Shown here one piece after another: positions 24,339 to 36,055 of a stretch of 64,000 bases of DNA (within the stretch, counting starts at the first letter, position 1; each line of letters begins with the position of its first letter). The notes below the pieces were generated by a model. That model did no database searches, was not told the DNA's origin, and worked only from the letters and a program-made list of their open reading frames with translations. The DNA comes from Syntrophotalea acetylenivorans (GTDB taxonomy: Bacteria > Desulfobacterota > Desulfuromonadia > Desulfuromonadales > Syntrophotaleaceae), in the NCBI RefSeq assembly GCF_001887775.1, contig NZ_CP015519.1, positions 1,736,001 to 1,800,000 of the forward strand, in the 5' to 3' direction. A program made the position numbers and the translations under genes.

Positions 24339-26462
24339 TTATTTGTTTTTGTCGGTAAAATGACGACTCAAGAAGAGTTCGGCCCGGTCGACGGGATGGG
24401 GCCGGCTGAAGTAAAAACCTTGCACCTCCTCGCAACCGCAACCACGCAGAAATTCTAATTGCTCCTCTGTTTCGACTCCTTCGGCGACCACCTTCAGCTT
24501 AAGGCTATGAGCCATAACAACAATGGCCTCGGTGATGGCAGCATCATCCGAATCGGTGGTGATGTCCCGCACAAAGCTGCGATCGATCTTGATGCGGTCG
24601 ATGGGGAAATACTTGAGATAGCTGAGCATGCTGTAGCCGGTACCGAAATCGTCGATGGCCAGCTTGATACCGCGTATTTTAAGGTCGGTCAGAGTCATCA
24701 GAGTCTCTTCGGAGCGCTCCATGACGATACTCTCGGTCAGTTCGACCTCCAGATACTCCGGATCGAGTCCTGTCTCCTGGAAAACCTGGTCAAGGCGCTC
24801 GATAAAGTCAGGCTGTTTGAACTGACAGGCAGAGATATTCACCGCCATGCGTAGGTTGTCAAATCCAGCCTGATGCCATTGACGGGCCTGCTTACAGGCT
24901 GTTTCCAACACCCATGCGCCGATGGGCAGAATCAGCCCCGTCTCTTCTGCCAAAGAAATGAATTGGGCCGGTGAAACGCTACCCAGAGCGGAAGAATCCC
25001 AACGCAACAGGGCTTCCATGCCGATAACCTTGCCACTACGCAAATCGATCTGCGGCTGGTAATGGAGACTCAGTTCCTGCCGCTCCAAAGCCTGCCGCAG
25101 GTGGGTCTCCATGGCCAGGCGTTGGCAGGTGACGAGGTTCATCTCCGGATCATAGAAACGGTAACTGCCTGTACCCTGTTCCTTGGATTTGTGCAGAGCT
25201 ACACCGGCGTGCTTGATCAGGGTATCAACGTTGCCACCATCCGTAGGATAAAGAGCCAAGCCAATGCTTGCCGAGCAGTACAGGGGTTGCTCTGCCAATT
25301 CAATGGGGGCACTCAGGACAATCAGTATTTTCTCGGCAAGAAAAGAAAGGCTTTCCGGATTGTCAATATCGGGCAGAGCCACAGCGAACTCGTCGGGTCC
25401 CAGGCGCGCCAGGATCGCCCCTTTTTCCAAACAATCGGCCAAGCGCTCGCTTACTTCCTGAAGACACTGGTCGCCTATATCATGACCAAAGGTATCGTTG
25501 ATACCCTTGAAACGATCCAGGTCGATTATTAACACTCCAACCGGATGCTTCCCCGACAGAGACAACAGATCGCTGCAGCGTTCTCGAAACAGCTGGCGGT
25601 TGGGCAAACCGGTCAAGGTATCGAAGTAAGCCAGTTGCCGTATCTCCTGCTGGGCCTGCAGATGCGGAGTGATATCGTGCACCAGACTGATACAGTAAGT
25701 CACCTGCTTCTGGTCATCAAACAACCAACTGGTTGAGACATGGGCCCAAAGAGTATCACCGTCCTTGCATAGAAACCGTTTTTCGTAATCGACGGACTGA
25801 CGTTGACCAGCTTTTGCTTCACTAAACAAGCGGCGAGTCAAAGCAACATCAGAGGGGTGGGTAAAATCGTAGGTGGTTTTGCCAACCAGTTCCTCTTCCG
25901 AACGCTGCAGCATCTTACAGAAGGCAGGGTTAACTTGTAGAAACTTTCCTTCCGCCGAGAGGGTCGCCATGCCGGTAATCGCATTGAGAAAGATAGAGCG
26001 AAAACGTTGTTCGCTGTCCAGCAGAGTCTCTTCCGCGCAACGCTTTTGACGGCGACTGGCCGCCTCGCGAAGTTCACGGTCAATAGCCGGCAGCAGGCGT
26101 GCAGTGTGGCCCTTCATGACATAATCATGGGCACCGGCTCGCATCGATTCGACGGCGGTTTCCTCGCCGATGTTCCCCGACAGGACAATAAAGGGGATGT
26201 CGAGGCCACTCTGCTTCAACACCTCCAGGGCGGCCAGAGCGCTGAAATGGGGCATGGAATAATCGGAAATGACGATATCCCACTCCCGCTCGGCCAGCGC
26301 AGAAGTCATCGCCTTGCCTGTATCGACCTGCTCGTAGACCAGATCGTAACCGGCCTGCCGAAGGGAGCGCGCCAACAGCAGGGCGTCATCCTCGGCATCC
26401 TCGATGATCAGCACCCGCAGGGGCACCCGATCTTTTGATTCCTTATTGACAGGGTTGTTCAT
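24339..26462 (-). CDS. REC-PAS-GGDEF-EAL response regulator (degenerate GPDEF)
   Basis: A protein of 707 residues. The receiver (about 14-130) has phospho-acceptor Asp 67 in VISDYSMP. PAS/PAC spans about 150-270. The GGDEF domain (about 275-440) has the signature GPDEF at 355-359: the second glycine is proline, which should impair GTP handling. The EAL domain (about 455-700) keeps EALLRW at 483 and DDFGTGYSMLSYL. The likely output is phosphorylation-controlled c-di-GMP breakdown. The start at 26462 overlaps the end of the upstream receiver gene by 20 nt, so it is translated with it. It is the last gene of the leftward operon that starts with four periplasmic binding proteins. Confidence 0.92.
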   Translation of the reverse strand: MNNPVNKESKDRVPLRVLIIEDAEDDALLLARSLRQAGYDLVYEQVDTGKAMTSALAEREWDIVISDYSMPHFSALAALEVLKQSGLDIPFIVLSGNIGEETAVESMRAGAHDYVMKGHTARLLPAIDRELREAASRRQKRCAEETLLDSEQRFRSIFLNAITGMATLSAEGKFLQVNPAFCKMLQRSEEELVGKTTYDFTHPSDVALTRRLFSEAKAGQRQSVDYEKRFLCKDGDTLWAHVSTSWLFDDQKQVTYCISLVHDITPHLQAQQEIRQLAYFDTLTGLPNRQLFRERCSDLLSLSGKHPVGVLIIDLDRFKGINDTFGHDIGDQCLQEVSERLADCLEKGAILARLGPDEFAVALPDIDNPESLSFLAEKILIVLSAPIELAEQPLYCSASIGLALYPTDGGNVDTLIKHAGVALHKSKEQGTGSYRFYDPEMNLVTCQRLAMETHLRQALERQELSLHYQPQIDLRSGKVIGMEALLRWDSSALGSVSPAQFISLAEETGLILPIGAWVLETACKQARQWHQAGFDNLRMAVNISACQFKQPDFIERLDQVFQETGLDPEYLEVELTESIVMERSEETLMTLTDLKIRGIKLAIDDFGTGYSMLSYLKYFPIDRIKIDRSFVRDITTDSDDAAITEAIVVMAHSLKLKVVAEGVETEEQLEFLRGCGCEEVQGFYFSRPHPVDRAELFLSRHFTDKNK

Positions 26463-26883
26463 TCAGATTCAACCAATAATTCCCCAATTGACCAACTTCA
26501 TCCAGAAAACAATTGAAATCTACCGGCTTACGAATGTAACTGTTGGCGCCAAGGGAATAAGCTTCTTTGATATCCTGCTCTTCGCGAGAAGAGGTTAATA
26601 CAACCACCGGCAGAAGACGGGTACGCTGGTCGAGACGTAGTCGCTCCAGCACTTCGAGGCCACCGATTTTGGGCAATTTGAGATCCAGTAAAATCACCGC
26701 CGGCAGTTCCGGTTTGCTGCAATCGGCATAGGGGCCACGACCGAAAAGATAATCCAGAGCTTCGGCACCATCACGGACCACCACCACCGGGTTTTCGATA
26801 CGGTTTTTGCGCAATGCTCGCAGAGTTAACACCTCATCATCGGAATTATCTTCGACAAGCAAGATATTTTTAGTCTTTTTCAT
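26443..26883 (-). CDS. Stand-alone receiver (CheY-like, Rcp1 subfamily)
   Basis: A protein of 146 residues made of a single receiver domain. The acidic pocket is EDNSDDE at 11-17, the phospho-acceptor is Asp 67 in AVILLDLKLP, and the switch residues include VVVLTSSREEQD and the lysine in SYIRKPVDF. The insert after the second strand (YLFGRGPYADCSKPELP) is typical of the Rcp1-like subfamily that partners phytochrome-type kinases; the upstream kinase has the same phytochrome-like HisKA sequence. There is no output domain, so it likely passes phosphate on or acts by protein contact. It is 113 nt after the kinase gene and overlaps the EAL response-regulator gene. Confidence 0.92.
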   Translation of the reverse strand: MKKTKNILLVEDNSDDEVLTLRALRKNRIENPVVVVRDGAEALDYLFGRGPYADCSKPELPAVILLDLKLPKIGGLEVLERLRLDQRTRLLPVVVLTSSREEQDIKEAYSLGANSYIRKPVDFNCFLDEVGQLGNYWLNLNEQPCQ

Positions 26884-26996
26884 TTCAATTGTCCATTACA
26901 AAGCAAAAGAGGCGCATGCCTTTAAACTCCCAATCATTGGTCAAGCACTAGCCACCACTAGAAACATTTACAGTTTCTTAATATCACATTTATCCA

Positions 26997-28577
26997 TTAC
27001 AAAGTAAAAAAGAAGGTCGCACCCTTTTCCACTTCGCCCTCAGCCCAGACTTGGCCACCATGACGATGAATAATGCGCTTCACTGTAGCTAGACCGATAC
27101 CGGTGCCTGGAAACTCATCGACCCGGTGCAAGCGCTGAAAAACACCGAACAGCTTGTCGGCATAAGCAGGATCGAACCCGGCACCATTGTCCCGCACATA
27201 ATAAGCGTCACCGGCTGGTGAACCATCGCCTGCAGAGGGCCGACTCTTTTCGACACCGAATTCAATACGGCCCTGTTCCCGCCGACCGGTGAATTTCCAG
27301 GCATTGCCAAGCAGGTTTTCCAGTACCACCCGCAGCAACCGGGGGTCTCCATCGGCGGTAACATTGGGCTGAATCACTGTTTCCACCTCCTGCCACGGAT
27401 TGTCCAATTTCAACTCTTGAGAAACTAGTCCGACCAAACCGCTAAGATCGACCGGCTGCCGAACCATCTCCCCACGGGTAATGCGGGACAAATAGAGCAA
27501 ATCATCGATGAGCTGGGCCATACGCTGGGAAGCTCCCCGCACCCGCTGTAGAAATTCCTGGCCTTCCTCATCGAGCTGCTCTCCGTAATCGTCGAGAAGG
27601 GCCTGGCTGAAACCATCGATGCTGCGCAGAGGCGCCCGCAAATCGTGGGAAACCGAATAGGCAAAAGCCTCCAGTTCCCGGTTGGCGACCTTGAGCTGAG
27701 CGGTCCGCTGGCTTACCCGTTGCTCAAGCTCCTGGTTGAGGTAAAAAATATCCTGTTGAGTCTGCTGATGTTCGGTAATTTCCAGATGCAACCGGGTATT
27801 GGTCTTCTGTAAGGCCTTGGCCTGCTTCTCCAAGTCGCCATGAGCAGCCAGGAGATGTTCTGACATCTGACTGAAAGCCCGAGTCAGGTCGCCAACTTCG
27901 TCCACCGCATTGGACTGGGGCAGATTCTTCTTCCAATCGCCGTGGCTGATAGCCAAAGCCGCTTGGGAAAGCTGCTGCACCGGGGCGGCAATGGTCCTGG
28001 CGAACCAGGCAAATATCAGCAGACCGCCGACCAGACCAAGTAATAGAATCCACGCGACCTGGCTGAGAAAAGCATTGCGCTCGACAAGCATTTCATCGAC
28101 GTCCACCGACATGAGTACAATCCAGTTCCAGGCGGGGAACCGGGCATGATAGTGGAACAAAGCCTTTTTGCCATGGTCATGCTCCCAAAACCCCTGGATT
28201 CCCTGAGCTGCAATTGCATGGTGAATGATATCAGAGTTCTGGTCCTTCGCCAATTGCGGCAACAGCTGCCTGGAGTCCGGCTCGGCAAGAATATTTATCC
28301 GGCCGGTCCGGCCAAAACGGAACTCTCGATACTTATCCAGGATATCTGCCTGAGCCCTGTACACATAGCTGTCGACAGCAGCCACACCACTTTCGGTCAG
28401 TACTTTATGGGCGCTGCGAATATCTTCCAGGACTTTAACAACCTCCGCCTCCATCAATTTGCGGTTCATACGGTAGGCCAGCCGTTCGATGGTAAAGACA
28501 CCGGCAATACTGATGGCGATGCCGACCGCAAACAGAACGCCGAGAGCCAACAGGTTGAACTTATATCTGAGTTTCAT
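26997..28577 (-). CDS. Membrane sensor histidine kinase (Cache-HAMP-HisKA-HATPase)
   Basis: A kinase of 526 residues. TM1 is at about 9-30, a periplasmic single-Cache-like domain at about 35-165 ([36 protein letters not shown]), TM2 at about 173-195, and HAMP at about 195-250. A coiled coil precedes HisKA with His 311 in [15 protein letters not shown], and the HATPase has [17 protein letters not shown] and GTGIGLATV. The HisKA sequence is of the bacteriophytochrome/Rcp1-pairing type, fitting the receiver encoded just downstream. It begins 5 nt after the last of four periplasmic binding-protein genes. A model in which these load the sensor domain is attractive but inferred. Confidence 0.93.
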
Positions 28578-28582
28578 AGATT

Positions 28583-29650
28583 CTACCGTGCCTCGGACAG
28601 GGGAGCAGCGTCTTTTTTGTATACTTCCTGACCGATAACCTCCGCCGTCTGCAGCAGCGAGACCGGCAGTACGAGACCGGCAGCCTTGGCCATCTTCAGG
28701 TTGACCACCAGGTGGGCCAGCCGGTTACGCTCCACGGGCAGATCCGCAGGCCGCGCACCGGCTAGAATGCGCAAGGCGGTGGTGGCGGCATATTCCCCCT
28801 GCTCTTCCGCAACCTTGGCGATAGTCAACAGGTTGAAGGGTTGCATCCAGGGCAGCACCGAGCCGGACGGCACAGTGGTATGCGCTGCCACAAAGGCCTC
28901 GGCTTCGGCGGCATCCCAGCCGGTAAGGCCAACATGGTTTCGGAAAAACAGCATATCGACTTCCTGCTGGACCTGCAGAAAGGCCTCCTTGAATTCGGCA
29001 AAGGAGCGCACCAGGTAGCAACGCATCCGGCCGTCGAAAAACCGCTGGTTGTATTGGTCCGCAACAATCCGGTTGGTGTTCACATCTGCGCCGATGAAAC
29101 CGGCCCGATCCCCCTTGGCCAAACGCCGCAGATGCATGACCAGCCCCTCGGCCATTTCATCTTCGATCATGCCGGTCACATTGCTGCTGGGGTAACCATA
29201 ATTCGCGAGGTCTTCATTCACGCCGCAGAACACCACCGGCAGGGCGGTATCTTTGAGGTAGGGGACCACCAGAAAACGTTGGGCATTGTCGTCGGAGGCG
29301 ATGACCACATCGGGCCGGAATTCCTCGATAATCTTTTTTGCCCGGCGGCCGGCCTGGCGATGAAAATCCTCTTCGAGGTGGTTCTTCGTGTCCATTTGAA
29401 AGATTTTCAGCTCCACGCCGCTTCCATACAACGCGACGCGAAGCCCCTTTTCAATTCCGGAGCTCCAGGCGTATCCGGCATCATAGGAATCAACCCAAAG
29501 AATTCTTTTACCACGGTAGAAAGATTTCAAATCCTTTGCGTTATCTTCGGCCATTACCGTCGTAGCGATACCGGTCAAGAGCATCACCAGCAGCAGACTG
29601 TTCACAATACGCAACCCAATCAAACCAGCTCCCCCTACAACTACAAACAT
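28583..29650 (-). CDS. Periplasmic ABC-substrate-binding-like protein, paralogue 4 of the array
   Basis: A protein of 355 residues with a signal peptide (about 1-34, ending VMA), then a type I periplasmic binding fold of the PF04392 type. Family marks shared by all four array members are [15 protein letters not shown] near the mature start, [24 protein letters not shown], and a C-terminal GQEVYK. It resembles paralogue 3 most (both have [13 protein letters not shown]). No ABC permease or ATPase is nearby, while a sensor kinase starts 5 nt later, so a sensing role is more likely than transport. The ATG at 29650 has AAGGA upstream. It carries a slightly longer C-terminal tail than its siblings. 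Confidence 0.85.
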
Positions 29651-29679
29651 GACAATTCCTTATGGCAATAATCCATCGC

Positions 29680-30684
29680 CTACTCTTGCAATGCCTCCTG
29701 GCCGATAACTTCCGCCGTTTGCAGCAGAGACACCGGCACGACAATGCCGGCCGCCTGGGCCATCTTCAGGTTAACGGTCAGCTGCGCCTCTTGATTTTTC
29801 ACGATGGGAATATCCTCGGGCTGCGCTCCTGCAAGAATTCGCAGAGCCGTAGCAGCCGCATAGGCCCCCTGCTCTTCCGGAACTTTGGCCAGGTTGAAAA
29901 TTACGAATGACTTCATCCAGGGATTAAATCCACCGGTGGGGATACGGGTGTGCTCAGTCAGGAAGGTTTCAGCAAGGTCATTTTGCCAGCCTTCGATCCC
30001 GGCGTTGTTCGGCAAACACAGAATATCCACTTCTTGCTGGGCACGCAGGAAGGCCTCCTTGAATTCGTCGAAGTTCTGGACCAGGTAGACTTTCAGCCGT
30101 TCGCCAAAAACATGGTGGTTGTAATCATCAGCGATAATCTGGTCGGTTTCCCGTTGACAGGCGATCATGCCGATACGGTCACCGCCGGCAAAATTACGCA
30201 TTCGCTGGACAAGATCCGCGACAAAATCGACTTCATGCATACCGGTCACATTGCGGGCGGGGTAGCCGTATTCGCTCGGGGCGCGGTTGACTCCACAGAA
30301 TACCACCGGCAAGTCGCTCCCTCTGAGATAGGGCACCACCAAAAACCGTTGGGCATTGTCGTCGGAGGCGATGATCACATCGGGGCGATATTCCTCGACC
30401 AGCCTTCGGGCAGTGTCCCCGGCCTGCTGACCATAGGCTTCGGAGCGATTTCGCAAGGTGTCCATGTGCCAGCTTTTTAACTCGACCCCACTGCCGGAGA
30501 GAGTTTTTTGGATACCGCGACCGATGCCATCCGCCCAGAGATAGCCCTGGTGATAGGAGTTAACCCAAAGTACTTTTTTTCCGCGATAGGCATCGACAGA
30601 GTCGGCAACATGATCCGCCGCCGTTGCCTCAACAGCACAGATACCGCATAAAAAAATGACCGCGAACAGCACCCAGCGTGACAA
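29680..30684 (-). CDS. Periplasmic ABC-substrate-binding-like protein, paralogue 3
   Basis: A protein of 334 residues with a signal peptide (about 1-22, ICAVEATA), then the PF04392-like binding fold. It has [55 protein letters not shown], and AVIGQEALQE-type residues at the end. It starts with TTG (30684) preceded by GGGGGGAGG at 8 nt, an unusual but well-supported start. It lies 29 nt upstream of paralogue 4 and 50 nt downstream of paralogue 2. The ligand is unknown. Differences from paralogues 1 and 2 in the loop after FCGVN suggest a different ligand preference. Confidence 0.85.
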   Translation of the reverse strand: MSRWVLFAVIFLCGICAVEATAADHVADSVDAYRGKKVLWVNSYHQGYLWADGIGRGIQKTLSGSGVELKSWHMDTLRNRSEAYGQQAGDTARRLVEEYRPDVIIASDDNAQRFLVVPYLRGSDLPVVFCGVNRAPSEYGYPARNVTGMHEVDFVADLVQRMRNFAGGDRIGMIACQRETDQIIADDYNHHVFGERLKVYLVQNFDEFKEAFLRAQQEVDILCLPNNAGIEGWQNDLAETFLTEHTRIPTGGFNPWMKSFVIFNLAKVPEEQGAYAAATALRILAGAQPEDIPIVKNQEAQLTVNLKMAQAAGIVVPVSLLQTAEVIGQEALQE

Positions 30685-30734
30685 AACGTTTCCTCCCCCC
30701 TAAACCCCTTTAAAAAAATAGCGACGACAGTCTA

Positions 30735-31742
30735 TCAGCGCAGAGCCTCCTGGCCGATAACCTTGCCCGCCGCCTTGAGAGTCTCCACCGGCAACTGAAT
30801 CCCTGCCGCTTTGGCCATTTTAAGATTCAGGGTCAGGCTGGCCCGCTCGTTGGAGGCCAGCGGGATATCCTTAGGGTCCACACCACCAAGAATGCGCAGA
30901 GCGGTACGAGCAGCCCACTCACCCTGCTCCTGCGGCACCTTGGCAACGGTGAAGGTAACGAAGCGCTCCATATACCCAAGACGGGAGCCGGTCGGCTTGG
31001 CGACATTCTGCAACAGGAATTCCTCGACTTGAGGAGAATCCCAACCGGGCATGTCGGAATGGTTGGCAATGTAGATCATGTCGACTTCCTGTTGGGCTTT
31101 TAGAAAGAGTTCCTTGAAATGGGTAAAATCCCGGGCCAGATACGACTTCATCTTGCCGTTGAAGAAATGATGGTTATAGACGCTGACTACTTTGCGTTCG
31201 GAAACGGTATCGGCGCTCAGATATCCGAGGCGATTGCCCTCGGCATAACGATGCAGGTGCCGGACCAGGGCCGTCACCGGCTCGACCTCCAGCATGCCGG
31301 TGACGTTGCGGCAGGGAAAGCCGTAGGGCGAAGCATCCCAGTTGATGCCGCAAAAGACCACCGGCAGGTCGGTATCCTTCAGGTAGGGCGCGACCAGGTA
31401 CTTGGCGGCGTTGTCATCGGAGGCAATAACCACATCGGGCCGAAAGGTCTCGATAGCCTTCTTGGCTTTGAGGGCGGCCTGTTGGCGACACTTCTCCTCG
31501 ACAATCCATTTGGTGTTCATCCGCTCGATACGCAGTTCAACACCGCTGCCCGAAAGAACCTGGCGAATGCCCTCTTCAATACCGGCCGTCCAGGCATAAC
31601 CCTCGTGATAGGAATCGACCCAAAGAATCTTCTTTCCCCGATAAGGCAACTCCCCCTGCTCTATCTTCTCGGCCTGTACCAGGGTCGGCATGAGCAAAAG
31701 GATCAGCAGAATACAAAATTTCCCCATAACATTGATGTTCAT
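30735..31742 (-). CDS. Periplasmic ABC-substrate-binding-like protein, paralogue 2
   Basis: A protein of 335 residues with a signal peptide (about 1-24, MPTLVQA), then the binding fold with [56 protein letters not shown] and GKVIGQEAL. It is closely similar to paralogue 1: long runs such as FCGINWDASPYGFPC, NVTGMLEVEP and SNERASLTLNL are the same in both. That points to a recent duplication. The ATG at 31742 has only a weak purine-rich ribosome site. It sits 50 nt from each flanking array member. Confidence 0.85.
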   Translation of the reverse strand: MNINVMGKFCILLILLLMPTLVQAEKIEQGELPYRGKKILWVDSYHEGYAWTAGIEEGIRQVLSGSGVELRIERMNTKWIVEEKCRQQAALKAKKAIETFRPDVVIASDDNAAKYLVAPYLKDTDLPVVFCGINWDASPYGFPCRNVTGMLEVEPVTALVRHLHRYAEGNRLGYLSADTVSERKVVSVYNHHFFNGKMKSYLARDFTHFKELFLKAQQEVDMIYIANHSDMPGWDSPQVEEFLLQNVAKPTGSRLGYMERFVTFTVAKVPQEQGEWAARTALRILGGVDPKDIPLASNERASLTLNLKMAKAAGIQLPVETLKAAGKVIGQEALR

Positions 31743-31792
31743 AACAAGTCTTTTCTCTATCCTATGATATTTACTGTTCAGCTTTCGGTTTG

Positions 31793-32806
31793 TTATTCAA
31801 TGCCCTCTTGGCCGATGACCCTGCTGGCAGCTCTAAGAATTTCCACGGGCAGCACAATACCGGCCGCTTTGGCCATCCTGAGATTGAGGGTCAGGCTGGC
31901 GCGCTCGTTAGACGCCAGCGGGATGGAGTCGGGCTGAGCTCCATCTAGAATCCGCAGTGCGGTTCTGGCCGCCCACTCACCCTGCTCTTCCGGCATCTTG
32001 GCCACAGTGACAATCACGTAGCGTGCCATGTAGGACGTTCGCGAGCCGGTCGGTAGCTTAATGTTGCGGGTCAGAAAGTCCTCAACCACCTGTGGGTCCC
32101 AACCGGGCATGTCGGAATAATTGGCGAGGTAGATCATATCCACTTCCTGTTGAGCGTGCAGAAAGAGTTCCTTAAATTGGGTGAAGTCCCGGGCCAGGTA
32201 AACCGTCATCGAGCCGTCTGACAAACGCTCTTTATAAATTTGAATCCTCTTTTGCTCAAGGACGGTATCGGCACAGAGGTAGCCTATCCGGTCGCCTTCG
32301 GCGTAACGCCGCAAATGCCGAACCAGGGCCTCCAGAATCTCTGGCGGCTCAACCTCGAGCATGCCGGTCACATTGCTGCAGGGAAAGCCGTAAGGAGAAG
32401 CGTCCCAGTTGATACCGCAGAAAACTACCGGAAGATCTGTGTCTTTCAGATAGGGTACTACCAGGTACTTGGCGGCATTGTCGTCGGAAGCAATGACGAC
32501 ATCAGGGCAAAACTCCTCGATCGCTGCCTTGGCTTTGAGCGCGGCCTCTCGCCGAAAGGCCTCATCGAGGTTCCACTTGGTGTTCATGCGCACGATGCGC
32601 AACTCAACGCCGCTGTTCTGCAACTCTCGGCGGATACCTGTCTCGATACCAGCAGACCACTCGTAGGCTTGGTTATAGGAGTCGACCCAGAGGATTTTCT
32701 TGCCCGGAAAAGACGGACCGGTGCCGGTTGCAGAGGCAGCCAACACCAGCGAAGGTAGAGCCATAAGCAACCAGCCACAACATCGAATGACCCTGACTAT
32801 GTTCAT
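31793..32806 (-). CDS. Periplasmic ABC-substrate-binding-like protein, paralogue 1 (promoter-proximal)
   Basis: A protein of 337 residues from the ATG at 32806 (AAAGGG upstream). That length matches its siblings, whereas the longer frame to 32962 adds 52 unconserved residues across the promoter region. The signal peptide spans about 1-23 (LPSLVLAASA). The binding fold shows [56 protein letters not shown] and SRVIGQEGIE. As the first gene of the leftward operon it is divergent from the oxidase-cytochrome pair across 259 bp. It is most similar to paralogue 2. Confidence 0.85.
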   Translation of the reverse strand: MNIVRVIRCCGWLLMALPSLVLAASATGTGPSFPGKKILWVDSYNQAYEWSAGIETGIRRELQNSGVELRIVRMNTKWNLDEAFRREAALKAKAAIEEFCPDVVIASDDNAAKYLVVPYLKDTDLPVVFCGINWDASPYGFPCSNVTGMLEVEPPEILEALVRHLRRYAEGDRIGYLCADTVLEQKRIQIYKERLSDGSMTVYLARDFTQFKELFLHAQQEVDMIYLANYSDMPGWDPQVVEDFLTRNIKLPTGSRTSYMARYVIVTVAKMPEEQGEWAARTALRILDGAQPDSIPLASNERASLTLNLRMAKAAGIVLPVEILRAASRVIGQEGIE

Positions 32807-33007
32807 TCGCACCCTTTCTTCCACACGGCGTGGAACAACCAAAAGGATAACTGAGTTCAGGAACTGCTCATCCATTGCCAGAACAACTTTAAACGAACTT
32901 TTAAGAAAACAGGCTAAAAAAGAAACTCTATTTTTAAAACAGTATTTTACTATTTGCAACAAAATAGTCCGACATAGCGGCTCAAACGGTGCAATACAGC
33001 GCCAGGT

Positions 33008-33036: not shown

Positions 33037-33065
33037 AAAACCAGCCCTTCCCTTCAGGAGACCGT

Positions 33066-34619
33066 ATGAACTATCCAGTTTGGTACCTGCCGACCATCGG
33101 CGGTGGCACATTGATCGCCCTGATCGCCATCGGTCACGTCTTCGTATCCCATTTCGCCGTCGGTGGCGGCCTGTTATTGGCCCTGAGCGAACGCCTGGCC
33201 CGCAAGCGCAACGATAGCAATCTGCTTTTCTTTACTAAGCGGTTCGCCCGTCTTTTCGTTTTGTTGACCCTGGTCTACGGCAGCCTGACGGGGGTCGGTA
33301 TCTGGTTTGTCATTTCTCTGGTTCAGCCGGGGGGCACATCTTTACTCATTCATCAGTTCGTCTTCGCCTGGGCGGCGGAATGGGTCTTCTTTTTGATCGA
33401 AATCGTCGCCATCTCGGTCTATCTCTATTCTTTTGATCGCATGCCAGCAACCATCCATCAAGCGGTGGCCTGGATTTATTTTGGCGCCGCCTGGTGCAGC
33501 CTGTTTATTATCAACGGCATCATCACCTTTATGCTTACTTCCGGCAACTGGGCCAGCAACGGATCGTTCTGGAGCGCTTTTTTCAATCCCAGCTTCTGGC
33601 CTTCGCTGGTCTTTCGCACCCTGTTGGCCGTCATCAATGCCGGCCTATTCGCCCTGCTGTTCAGTGCCTTCAGCAAAGACCTCAATCTGCGCCGGCAAGT
33701 GGTTAGCTACTGTAACCGCCTGATGTTACCGGCCCTGCTCGCCACTTTACCCACGGCCTGGTGGTACCTGCGCAGCCTGCCCGAACCGGCCAGGGACCTG
33801 GTCACTGCGGGATCGCCGACCATCGTTCGTGCCCTGCATGGAGGGGCTATCGGTGCTATCCTTGTGCTTTTGGTTCTATTATTCAGCTTATTCGCTCCGC
33901 TTCGTTATCGCCGGTCTCTGGCCGTTCTGGCTCTGGCTTCGGGATTGCTTTTGATGGGAAGTTTCGAATGGACTCGGGAGGCAGCCAGGCGACCCTTTGT
34001 TGTGCAGCAAACGATGTTCTGCAACGGTATGACTCCCGAGCAAGTACCGCAACTCAAAGAGCAGGGGTTCCTGGCAAAGGCGCGCTGGAGCCAGATCCAC
34101 CAGGCCACCTCCGATCCGGCAACAGCAGGTCGTGAACTTTTCAAGTTTCAGTGTTACTCGTGCCACACCCTAGATGGCTTCAACAACGACCTTTTGCAGC
34201 GAACCCGTCCTTTGAGCCAGGCCGCCCTCGCCGGTTATATCGACAGCCTGCATCAGGTTCGATATTTCATGCCCCCCTTTGCCGGTAATAATAATGAGCG
34301 GCAGGTCCTCGCCGCCTTTCTCACCGACGGCCTGTTCCCCAGCTTTGACAAGTCTGCCGAGACACCCAAAGAAGTTCCTCCGGACCGATTGCTATTTGAG
34401 CAAAACTGTACCCTGTGCCATACGACTAAGCTGGTCGCAACCCGTACCGCAGATTGGTCTAAAGTCCGTATTCGCAACGCACTCGACCATCTGAACCGGC
34501 TCCATCCGGCCATGCCAGACTATAAAGGAGCTCCGGAAGAAAAAGACCGTCTCGCCGACTATATTTATCAATTGAATCGCTCGGCTGCTCAAAAGCCGGC
34601 CACGGGAGTCACTCCATGA
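33066..34619 (+). CDS. CydA-like bd-type quinol oxidase subunit fused to dihaem cytochrome c
   Basis: A protein of 517 residues with about eight membrane helices in the first 300, then a periplasmic-type tail with two CxxCH haem c sites, at 363-367 and 448-452. CydA features visible are a histidine in helix 1 (His 24), two glutamates in one helix (Glu 105 and 112) followed by a F-D-R motif as in E. coli A-I-E...L-E...W-D-R, and REAARRPF at 304-311, matching the T-E-x-G-R-Q-P-W motif. The domain is shorter than true CydA and lacks a long Q-loop. The role is probably membrane quinol or cytochrome c oxidation coupled to O2 or another small acceptor. It has its own promoter and overlaps the next gene by 4 nt. 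Confidence 0.82.
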   Translation: MNYPVWYLPTIGGGTLIALIAIGHVFVSHFAVGGGLLLALSERLARKRNDSNLLFFTKRFARLFVLLTLVYGSLTGVGIWFVISLVQPGGTSLLIHQFVFAWAAEWVFFLIEIVAISVYLYSFDRMPATIHQAVAWIYFGAAWCSLFIINGIITFMLTSGNWASNGSFWSAFFNPSFWPSLVFRTLLAVINAGLFALLFSAFSKDLNLRRQVVSYCNRLMLPALLATLPTAWWYLRSLPEPARDLVTAGSPTIVRALHGGAIGAILVLLVLLFSLFAPLRYRRSLAVLALASGLLLMGSFEWTREAARRPFVVQQTMFCNGMTPEQVPQLKEQGFLAKARWSQIHQATSDPATAGRELFKFQCYSCHTLDGFNNDLLQRTRPLSQAALAGYIDSLHQVRYFMPPFAGNNNERQVLAAFLTDGLFPSFDKSAETPKEVPPDRLLFEQNCTLCHTTKLVATRTADWSKVRIRNALDHLNRLHPAMPDYKGAPEEKDRLADYIYQLNRSAAQKPATGVTP

Positions 34620-35671
34620 ACCCACTGATCCCCCTGCCGGACCCGATCCCTGTCCCGTGGGGCTACCTTATCGCCCTTTTGATGCTGGTCTTCCCTTTGC
34701 ACCTGTTGTTCATGAACTGTCTGCTCGGCACCACGGCGGTGACCCTTTACCTGCAACGCCGCTCCGACGCCGTGGCGACACAACTTGCGACGGAACTAAG
34801 CCGCGCCCTGCCCCTTATCATGGCCTTTGTGGTCAATTCAGGGGTCGCTTCACTGCTCTTTCTACAAGTGCTGTACGGCCAGTTTTTTTACACCAGTTCA
34901 ATTCTTATGGGCAGCTACTGGTTGGCCATCATTCCCCTGCTGATCGTGGCCTACTATGCCCTCTACTGGGTCGACTTCCGCTACCGACGCCTGGGCCGGT
35001 ATCGTTGGCTGTTGCTGTCCGGTGTATTGCTTGTGTTGCTGCTGGTGCCCTTTATGTTCAGCAACAACATGACCCTGATGCTCCGCCCGCAGAGCTGGTC
35101 GGCTTACTTCGATCGGGACAACGGCACTCTGCTGAACCTGACCGATCTCAGCCTCTGGCCCCGTTACGCCCATTTCGTGGTGGCCGCCCTCGCCGTCGGC
35201 GGCCTGTTCACCGCCACCCTGGGCCGCTGCTATCGGTCAAGGGCTCCTGAGCTGGCCGCCTATGCCCGGAATCTCGGCATGGCCTTGTTCAGCCGCCTGA
35301 CTCTGCTCCAACTACTTATCGGCCCCCTGTTTTTATTCAGCCTGCCACAACCACTGCGCTGGCAGATTCTCGGCGGCTCTCCCCTGGCGGCTATGCTTTT
35401 ATGTACCGCCCTGGCTTTGCTGGCAGCGTTGCTGGTCAATGCTTTTCAGCAACGGGTACTTACCAGCCTGGCCCTGCTGGTTCCCCTGGTCTGCTGCATG
35501 GTCGCACTGCGGGCATGGCTGCGCAGCGCTTTTCTGCAGCCGCACTTCACCCTGGACCAGCTACATGTGGCCCCCCAATACTCTCCCTTACTAGTATTTG
35601 TGATCGTCCTGTTATTGGGCAGCGTCGTGATCAGCTGGCTGCTCTATCAGGCGGCGGCAGCGCAGCGCTAA
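34616..35671 (+). CDS. Polytopic membrane partner of the CydA-like cytochrome (subunit II-like)
   Basis: A protein of 351 residues that is almost entirely membrane helices, about nine. An N-terminal PLPDPIPVPWGYLIALLMLVF start precedes helices with conserved polar residues (MNCLLGTT, NSGVASLLF, YALYWVDFRYRRL). The ATG overlaps the stop of the CydA-like gene (ATGA), so the two are translationally coupled subunits. I do not recognise clear CydB motifs, so subunit II is assigned by context and topology. It might bind a haem (His 38 in LHLLFMN, His in ARYAHFVV), but that is a guess. There is no CydX-like small ORF after it. Confidence 0.65.
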   Translation: MNPLIPLPDPIPVPWGYLIALLMLVFPLHLLFMNCLLGTTAVTLYLQRRSDAVATQLATELSRALPLIMAFVVNSGVASLLFLQVLYGQFFYTSSILMGSYWLAIIPLLIVAYYALYWVDFRYRRLGRYRWLLLSGVLLVLLLVPFMFSNNMTLMLRPQSWSAYFDRDNGTLLNLTDLSLWPRYAHFVVAALAVGGLFTATLGRCYRSRAPELAAYARNLGMALFSRLTLLQLLIGPLFLFSLPQPLRWQILGGSPLAAMLLCTALALLAALLVNAFQQRVLTSLALLVPLVCCMVALRAWLRSAFLQPHFTLDQLHVAPQYSPLLVFVIVLLLGSVVISWLLYQAAAAQR

Positions 35672-36055
35672 GCTTAAGGGCCGGCCACTGGCCATTGGAT
35701 TTTGTCAGCAGGTTTCAGCAGGAAATATGCTGGCCCCGCAATATCCAAGACAAGACTCAAGCAACGGAACAGCAAGCCTATCAAGGACATAACCGTCTTC
35801 ACGCCCGTTCACTACGCTCACTTGAAACGCTGAGACCGCGGGCAAAACAAAACCAGATTTCTCTGGGCATCCGCGTCTTTGCGCGATAAATATTCTCTGA
35901 TCTTTTAGGGGTTCTTAAAGAGGCTCGCATTGAATCCGGAAACCGGGTGGTTGCCGGGCTTGAAGGACCGTAGCGAAAAATTGGAGGGAATCTGGGCCGA
36001 TCAGACGATTTTCAGGCGGTTCATGGCCAAGTCCGACAGTCTCCCAGGACAAGAC
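35672..36055. other. Convergent intergenic region holding a degenerate palindrome
   Basis: These 384 bases lie between the rightward oxidase pair and the leftward nuclease gene. I see no credible gene; the apparent frame to 35889 is a shadow of the membrane subunit gene. An imperfect palindrome sits at 35828-35884 (listed separately). Before it are scattered small repeats and no T-rich terminator. Confidence 0.5.
35828..35884. repeat. Imperfect palindrome resembling an interspersed GCGTCTTTGCG-type repeat
   Basis: A nested inverted repeat. CCAGA (35853-35857) pairs with TCTGG (35862-35866). CGCGG near 35838 pairs with CCGCG (35871-35875). The outer CGC and AGA blocks pair with TCT...GCG. The right arm reads CCGCGTCTTTGCGCG, followed by an AT-rich tail with TATTCTCTGATC. 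Similar GCGTCTTTGCG palindromes are scattered between genes in many related genomes; that comparison is from memory. It could be a degenerate REP-like element or a weak bidirectional terminator. Confidence 0.5.

Follow-up and report, generated by a model that had tools for sequence, protein, structure and literature searches.

What reaction does a protein of the cytochrome bd type carry out when it ends in a dihaem cytochrome c and is encoded next to a partner that is not a clear CydB? This question is raised by two overlapping genes, here called A and B, in a 64,000-nucleotide stretch (the window) of the genome of Syntrophotalea acetylenivorans, an anaerobe from sediment.

Gene A: the CydA-type core and its haem c tail

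Both genes lie on the forward strand and share four bases as ATGA, and the span of 33066-35671 given for the pair in the initial annotation proved right (Table 1). In a Pfam search, residues 17-203 of A matched PF01654 (Cyt_bd_oxida_I) above the cut-off, with E 1.1e-10, and two stretches matched PF13442 (Cytochrome_CBB3, E 8.4e-15). The core is predicted to form eight membrane helices, followed by a periplasmic dihaem cytochrome c tail. The predicted model of A (pLDDT 86.9) matched the CydA fold with a Z score of 31.6 and an rmsd of 2.9 over 318 aligned residues. Bd matches scored far higher than unrelated helical bundles, which reached up to Z 11 for A and Z 7 for B; subunits of alternative complex III were the next rank after cytochrome bd for both proteins, with Z of about 16-18. 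The PF01654 match and the CydA fold together place A in the cytochrome bd superfamily. Lysine and arginine residues occur mostly in the loops that would place the N-termini of A and B and the tail of A outside. The domain order, like the conserved positions, the missing quinol loop and b558 ligands of A and the near-obligate pairing with B described below, is read directly from the sequences; the fold and topology of both proteins are predicted. A promoter scan gave no site upstream of A.

Table 1. Features of the A/B locus, in window coordinates
Feature	Position	Strand	Basis
AGGAG, likely ribosome-binding site of gene A	33056..33060	+	read from sequence
Gene A, CydA-type core with C-terminal dihaem cytochrome c	33066..34619	+	517 aa; PF01654, PF13442, CydA fold
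A H24 codon, active-site haem ligand position	33135..33137	+	His 79/79, 38/38; aligns with CydA His
A E105-E112 codons, matching CydA Glu99 and Glu107	33378..33401	+	both invariant 79/79, 38/38; profile alignment
A F183-R184 codons	33612..33617	+	haem b558 His column is Phe; R184 in 47/47 A rows
A E301-P310 codons, including E305 (CydA Glu445) and R308	33966..33995	+	E301, R304, E305, R308, P310 79/79, 38/38
A first haem c site CYSCH, residues 363-367	34152..34166	+	C363, C366, H367 79/79, 38/38
A M402 codon, distal Met of first haem c	34269..34271	+	79/79, 38/38
A second haem c site CTLCH, residues 448-452	34407..34421	+	only in part of family
Gene B, most likely CydA-paralogue partner, nine predicted membrane helices	34616..35671	+	351 aa; fold, profile relation to A
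B H29 codon, same column as A H24	34700..34702	+	39/39
B H186 codon, column of CydA haem b558 His	35171..35173	+	39/39; 13/13 in joint alignment
B M295 and R299 codons, helix 8; M295 candidate haem ligand	35498..35512	+	both 39/39
Terminator-like stem, 8 bases past gene B	35679..35693	+	weak evidence: 9 such stems in region vs 3.7 expected

In order to identify relatives of A, bacterial genome contigs were scanned, and the best 80 of 111 relatives were kept, giving 81 loci together with the window. Fifteen positions were unvarying in the 79 A sequences aligned from this set: H24, H29, E105, E112, R184, Y234, E301, R304, E305, R308, P310, C363, C366, H367 and M402. The same positions were conserved in 38/38 sequences of a deeper sample covering four architectures, namely A with a tail of one to four haems, the octahaem type, one-haem A with a plain B, and one-haem A with a B bearing two CxxCH sites. 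This sample (38 A and 39 B) consisted of one row in six from two row sets, A1 and A2, which held 72 and 70 of 79 sequences after near-copies and some cut frames had been removed, together with 25 A and 26 B from chosen regions. With H24, E105, E112, E305, R308 and P310 invariant in 79/79, the observation is therefore not a product of chance. The residues E305, R308 and P310 are part of the REAARRPF motif. Profile alignment placed H24, E105, E112 and E305 on conserved His or Glu residues of CydA, with the E105 column shifted by one for canonical CydA in one multiple alignment (that of the 87-row tree below). H24 corresponds to His19 (H19) of E. coli CydA and E112 to Glu107. Glu107 is also numbered in this way in PMC13189123, and PMC6853902 assigns His186 and Met393 of CydA to haem b558 and Glu99 and Glu445 to the other two haems.

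The sites around quinol and haem b558 follow a different pattern. The loop between helices 6 and 7 (the quinol loop) has 13 residues in A, and its length stays within 12-18 residues across all 47 A rows; the ten canonical CydA compared, which come from the same phylum, have 71-74. Histidine is found at the b558 His column in no A row (0/47) but in canonical CydA (10/10), B (13/13), long bd-like proteins (9/9) and a homologue from cable bacteria (7/7), while the b558 Met column holds Met in canonical CydA (10/10) and the cable homologue (7/7) and in neither A (0/47) nor B (0/13). Two further invariant residues of A, the second histidine H29 and R184, are both absent from CydA. The initial annotation had already described a CydA-type core with His 24, Glu 105, Glu 112 and REAARRPF, a missing or short Q-loop and a tail with two CxxCH sites, here located at 363 and 448, and in each of these points it agrees with the alignments.

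All aligned A sequences, 79/79 of the near set and 38/38 of the distant one, carry the first haem c, and the remainder of the tail varies. Among the 81 loci (best 80 of 111 relatives and the window), A frames hold three CxxCH sites in 30, eight in 27, two in 13, one in 5, four in 4, six in 1 and seven in 1, a few of these frames ending at contig ends. The tail is modular, with one to eight CxxCH on a constant core. Beyond the first haem, the eight-haem proteins (five scanned) matched Cytochrome_C7 in 5/5 and the MtrC/MtrF-like family PF22113 in 3/5. A heptahaem gene adjoins a one-haem A in L062 and L083, the heptahaem part being a separate gene there, and the octahaem A frame is apparently split into two overlapping or neighbouring frames in L230 and L077.

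A separate observation in the window concerns four tandem paralogous genes for substrate-binding proteins (24339-32842, minus strand; PF04392, E 9e-10 to 5e-12). There are no transporter genes among the four, and they adjoin a histidine kinase, a response regulator and a response-regulator/PAS/GGDEF/EAL protein, possibly forming a periplasmic sensing array.

Gene B as the partner subunit

At E <= 1, gene B matched neither a Pfam nor an NCBIfam family, and comparison with the sequences of solved structures gave chance matches only. When 70 B homologues were scanned singly, the commonest family was found in only 3/70 (best E 0.045), and the best single matches (E 0.0013 and above, one member each) carried unrelated names. 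The predicted model (pLDDT 91.6) matched the CydA fold with Z 28.5 and an rmsd of 3.4 over 336 aligned residues. By VIA, CydA was the best chain for B in 10/10 bd entries among the matches listed. The best Foldseek match was likewise a CydA chain (9r2g_A, E 5.8e-5); several CydB chains outranked the CydA of the same entry in Foldseek, so the fold alone is not decisive for B. Profile comparisons joined A with B at E 3.4e-11 and B with CydA at 5.4e-5, versus 0.16 for B with CydB, where the CydB profile was narrow (16 rows) and the same test also fails to join CydA with CydB themselves (E 0.3). Because the profile relations and fold matches point the same way together, gene B is most likely a second CydA paralogue. 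The assignment of B as a CydB was rejected on the profile values (0.16 against 5.4e-5 to CydA) and the best chains in VIA. The initial description of the partner as no clear CydB can therefore be sharpened to a most likely CydA paralogue.

Six residues of B are invariant in the 39/39 sequences of the deeper sample: H29, H186, M295, R299, G38 and G236. In the joint alignment B is without the acids of E105 and E112, and the E305 column holds Ala in the B of the window and Glu or Asp in 26/39 B. The quinol loop is missing from A and B alike, the corresponding loop having 8-13 residues in B. None of the CydB proton-path residues was recognisable in B.

Some B proteins carry haem c sites of their own. 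Two C-terminal CxxCH occur in the B of L124-L126, L140, L156, L157 and L231, and a dihaem cytochrome gene lies upstream of A in several of these loci. A B-like protein with one CxxCH was also seen at L142:1587-2891, where A was not found in the 5.5 kb region.

Occurrence, trees and the solo homologue of presumed cable bacteria

Gene B adjoins A in 79/81 loci (best 80 of 111 relatives and the window), in the order A-B in 48 and B-A in 31, with overlaps of mostly 1 or 4 bases. The two loci without B are L051, where A starts at the contig end, and L068, where room is present and no B was recognised. On these counts the possibility that the pair is an oddity of one genome was rejected. Across 297 genomes of the phylum, A was found in 52 and B in 55; all A genomes have B (52/52), and B without A at the threshold occurred in three genomes (G082, G226 and G280). 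By coordinates, A and B are adjacent in 50 of the 52 genomes. Both genes are present far apart on the same contig in G161 (locus L143), and fragments of them lie on different contigs in G289. The hosts of the clade are mostly Desulfobacterota, with some loci titled Acidobacteriota, Aminicenantes, Bacteroidota or Myxococcales (best 80 of 111), and the module was found in the cultured strains Trichlorobacter thiogenes, Desulfuromusa kysingii, Malonomonas rubra and Desulfofustis glycolicus.

Two trees were built from 82 and 87 chosen rows, by a quick search with SH-aLRT support only and with long-branch warnings. The haem c-bearing A proteins formed one group in both (49 rows with SH-aLRT 98 in the 82-row tree, 47 rows with 99 in the 87-row tree), and B formed one group with SH-aLRT 100 in the 82-row tree. 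Canonical CydA and the long bd-like proteins were separate groups, and the deep branching order is unsure because of long branches. The initial annotation could not place the protein; in these trees A belongs to a single clade of CydA relatives fused to haem c (SH-aLRT 98/99). The solo protein of L142 fell inside the B group of the 87-row tree on a very long branch, and its placement is unsure.

Gene neighbourhoods as a clue to function held mostly housekeeping genes. Other observations are an octahaem cytochrome c with PF11783, which we take to be the octahaem tetrathionate reductase-like family, after B in L013 (8866-10344, E 4e-56), L017, L018, L019, L022, L030 and L047, and a flavodiiron-type gene by B at L041:8808-10028 (PF19583, E 1.5e-25), with a gene of the same cluster in L045. 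A flavodiiron-type resemblance near B at L143:4659-5858 was noted by eye only.

A related protein was seen in genomes that presumably belong to cable bacteria. Within the family of Desulfogranum mediterraneum (L055), truncated haemoglobin was found in only two genera (g208 and g209; 12/73 genomes), and four of those genomes had a globin frame with five CxxCH. Such a globin-multihaem fusion is described in PMC11976967 as found only in cable bacteria, and the two genera were assigned to cable bacteria because of the truncated haemoglobin and the five-CxxCH fusion. A CydA homologue was found in 13/13 of these genomes (E 2e-45 to 9e-19, usually about 425 aa), with a haem c and its Met in 12/13, two sites in L224 and a short frame in L229. 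H24, E105, E305 and the b558 His are kept in 13/13, H29 and E112 are missing in 13/13, the helix 6-7 loop has 19 residues, and the b558 Met is present in 7/7. It thus resembles A in the CydA core, the short loop, the C-terminal haem c (12/13) and H24/E105/E305, but it is solo and retains an intact b558 site without H29 and E112, whereas the paired A has lost the b558 site. B was found in 0/13 of these genomes, and the presence of the same A/B complex in cable bacteria was rejected. In the 87-row tree the homologue was a separate branch, joined with other groups at SH-aLRT 71 only. These findings agree with PMC13047784, where the cable-bacterial CydAh has a periplasmic cytochrome c domain, and with PMC10030654, which reports only CydA homologues in cable bacteria.

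Relation to known systems and candidate function

Canonical CydAB, for which we considered the copy of the same genome (L001), the E. coli enzyme and that of Geobacillus (5doq), shares with A the CydA fold and the equivalents of H24/E105/E112/E305. A differs in being without the quinol loop and the b558 His/Met and in its haem c tail, and its partner is most likely a CydA paralogue. Measured as a qOR, A lacks the Q-loop (13 vs 71-74) and the b558 ligands (0/47), and B is most likely not a CydB. Archaeal CydAA' also joins two CydA paralogues in one complex, which resembles the partner subunit found here; it is quinol-driven and not known to carry haem c, unlike A/B with its haem c tail. The OR-C family of the cytochrome bd superfamily was reportedly defined by Murali, Gennis and Hemp in 2021, and we take its members to have haem c fused to a CydA core without a quinol site. 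By this definition A is OR-C-like as a bd superfamily protein without the qOR quinol site and with a haem c fusion, and A/B is probably a member of the published OR-C family, a known but biochemically unstudied kind. The initial annotation had named, as a refutation, a tree position within a characterized clade that shares this fusion, and such a position is seen only in part: other members of the clade have the fusion too, but by titles and abstracts no biochemical study of a member was recognised among the papers listed, and bd terms were absent from PMC10553843. PMC10839748 and PMC13189123 indicate that the qOR, OR-C and OR-N families differ in subunits and binding sites. In published accounts, OR-N (Nitrospira-type) proteins are without a quinol site and are presumed to have a link to cytochrome c and to function as a CydA-paralogue pair, features that they would share with A/B, and PMC3578206 describes a long OR-N form with 14 helices and without haem c. 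A/B was apart from the long bd-like proteins without haem c in both trees, the OR-N label of the latter being our assignment. These proteins (L144-L154, about 600 aa, without haem c and with the b558 His kept) are OR-N-like by this assignment, and in 8/9 aligned the E305 column holds Ser. The division of haem ligands between A and B, the octahaem and dihaem-B variants and the difference from the solo form of cable bacteria are possibly new.

We consider it moderately probable that A/B is a membrane-bound member of the cytochrome bd superfamily that acts as a cytochrome c:O2 oxidoreductase. The occupancy of the haems, the direction of electron flow, O2 as the substrate, the uptake of protons and the haem in B are inferred. 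The tail of A would receive electrons from a periplasmic cytochrome, and its proximal haem c (C363/M402), in a domain after the end of helix 8, would stand in for the quinol site and haem b558 and supply the pair of active-site haems at H24, E105 and E305. There O2 would be reduced with cytoplasmic protons passing E112, so that turnover should be electrogenic. B would occupy the place of CydB in the ordinary enzyme; since it keeps a b558-type H186 with H29 and M295, a haem b in B is probable and may have a structural or electron-storing role. The tail would be an exchangeable adaptor, with one to eight haem c, to different periplasmic cytochromes. This assignment is suggested by the invariance of H24, E105, E112, E305 and R308 (79/79, 38/38), by the short loop (12-18 vs 71-74) and the loss of the b558 His/Met from A, by the invariant first haem c and its Met, and by the variable tail on a constant core, with the separate heptahaem gene in L062 and L083. 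It is further suggested by the presence of B in 52/52 A genomes and the CydA fold of both models, and by the loop charges that place the tail outside. Reduction of O2 or NO is known for proteins of the flavodiiron type, and the gene of this type after B in L041 and, by clustering, L045 was counted in its favour as well. A link to cytochrome c instead of quinol, as initially proposed, is thus probable from the loss of the quinol loop and the cytochrome c fusion. Counted against it were the housekeeping neighbourhoods, the invariant H29 and R184 that CydA is without, and the absence of recognisable CydB proton-path residues from B. The genome, a single contig of 3.2 Mb, also encodes a canonical CydA (E 6.5e-181) with, by eye, a CydB beside it and a haem-copper oxidase (E 3.7e-152), so O2 reduction meets no unmet need, and this too was counted against.

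The main rival reverses the flow of electrons. Inner-membrane quinol oxidases of metal reducers send electrons out to periplasmic cytochromes, and on this model A/B would be a menaquinol:cytochrome c oxidoreductase that oxidizes quinol in B near the H186/M295 haem and passes the electrons out through the tail. The b558-type His of B, the octahaem tails that resemble parts of extracellular electron-transfer cytochromes (PF22113 in 3/5 tails), the hosts that include Geobacter and Desulfuromonas relatives, and the rank of alternative complex III subunits behind cytochrome bd are all in line with such an exit. However, A retains the whole O2-site set of E105, E112 and E305, and the quinol loop is missing from both proteins (8-13 residues in B), and we regard this model as unlikely. 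A further and doubtful idea is that two CydA paralogues share the haem machinery, with A keeping the O2-reducing pair of haems plus the haem c wire and B holding a low-spin b haem and perhaps a quinone site, in a three-way branch. A clean split of the haems is made less likely by the acid (Glu or Asp) that 26/39 B have in the E305 column.

The chemistry proposed for the cytochrome c:O2 oxidoreductase could also serve another role or substrate, with A/B scavenging O2, NO or peroxide to protect an anaerobe instead of respiring. Hosts that are mainly anaerobes with other oxidases, the restriction of the module to a minority (52/297 genomes) and the flavodiiron-type gene that adjoins B in both L041 and L045 would suit a scavenger, but the conserved cytoplasmic-side E112 suggests that proton uptake, and hence energy coupling, matters, and we regard this role as decidedly improbable. 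Least probable, to the point of being very unlikely, is a non-catalytic role, in which A/B would be a membrane anchor for the wiring of periplasmic haems and would not reduce O2; the unusual invariant residues R184 and H29 would fit it, and bd relatives of such kind are without shown activity, OR-N being called uncharacterised in PMC10839748, but H24, E105, E112 and E305 are invariant over four architectures.

A purified cytochrome c-driven bd member was not found among the papers listed. The A/B pair is well suited to show whether the bd fold can serve as a cytochrome c oxidase, since A has lost its b558 site and B has a conserved His that matches it. If the haem machinery is shared, one complex could connect O2 with the pools of cytochrome c and of quinone, and plug-in tails of one to eight haems would choose the partner. 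The pair is also relevant to O2 reduction by cable bacteria, whose solo CydA homologue carries a haem c tail of a related kind, and to the handling of oxygen by anaerobes.
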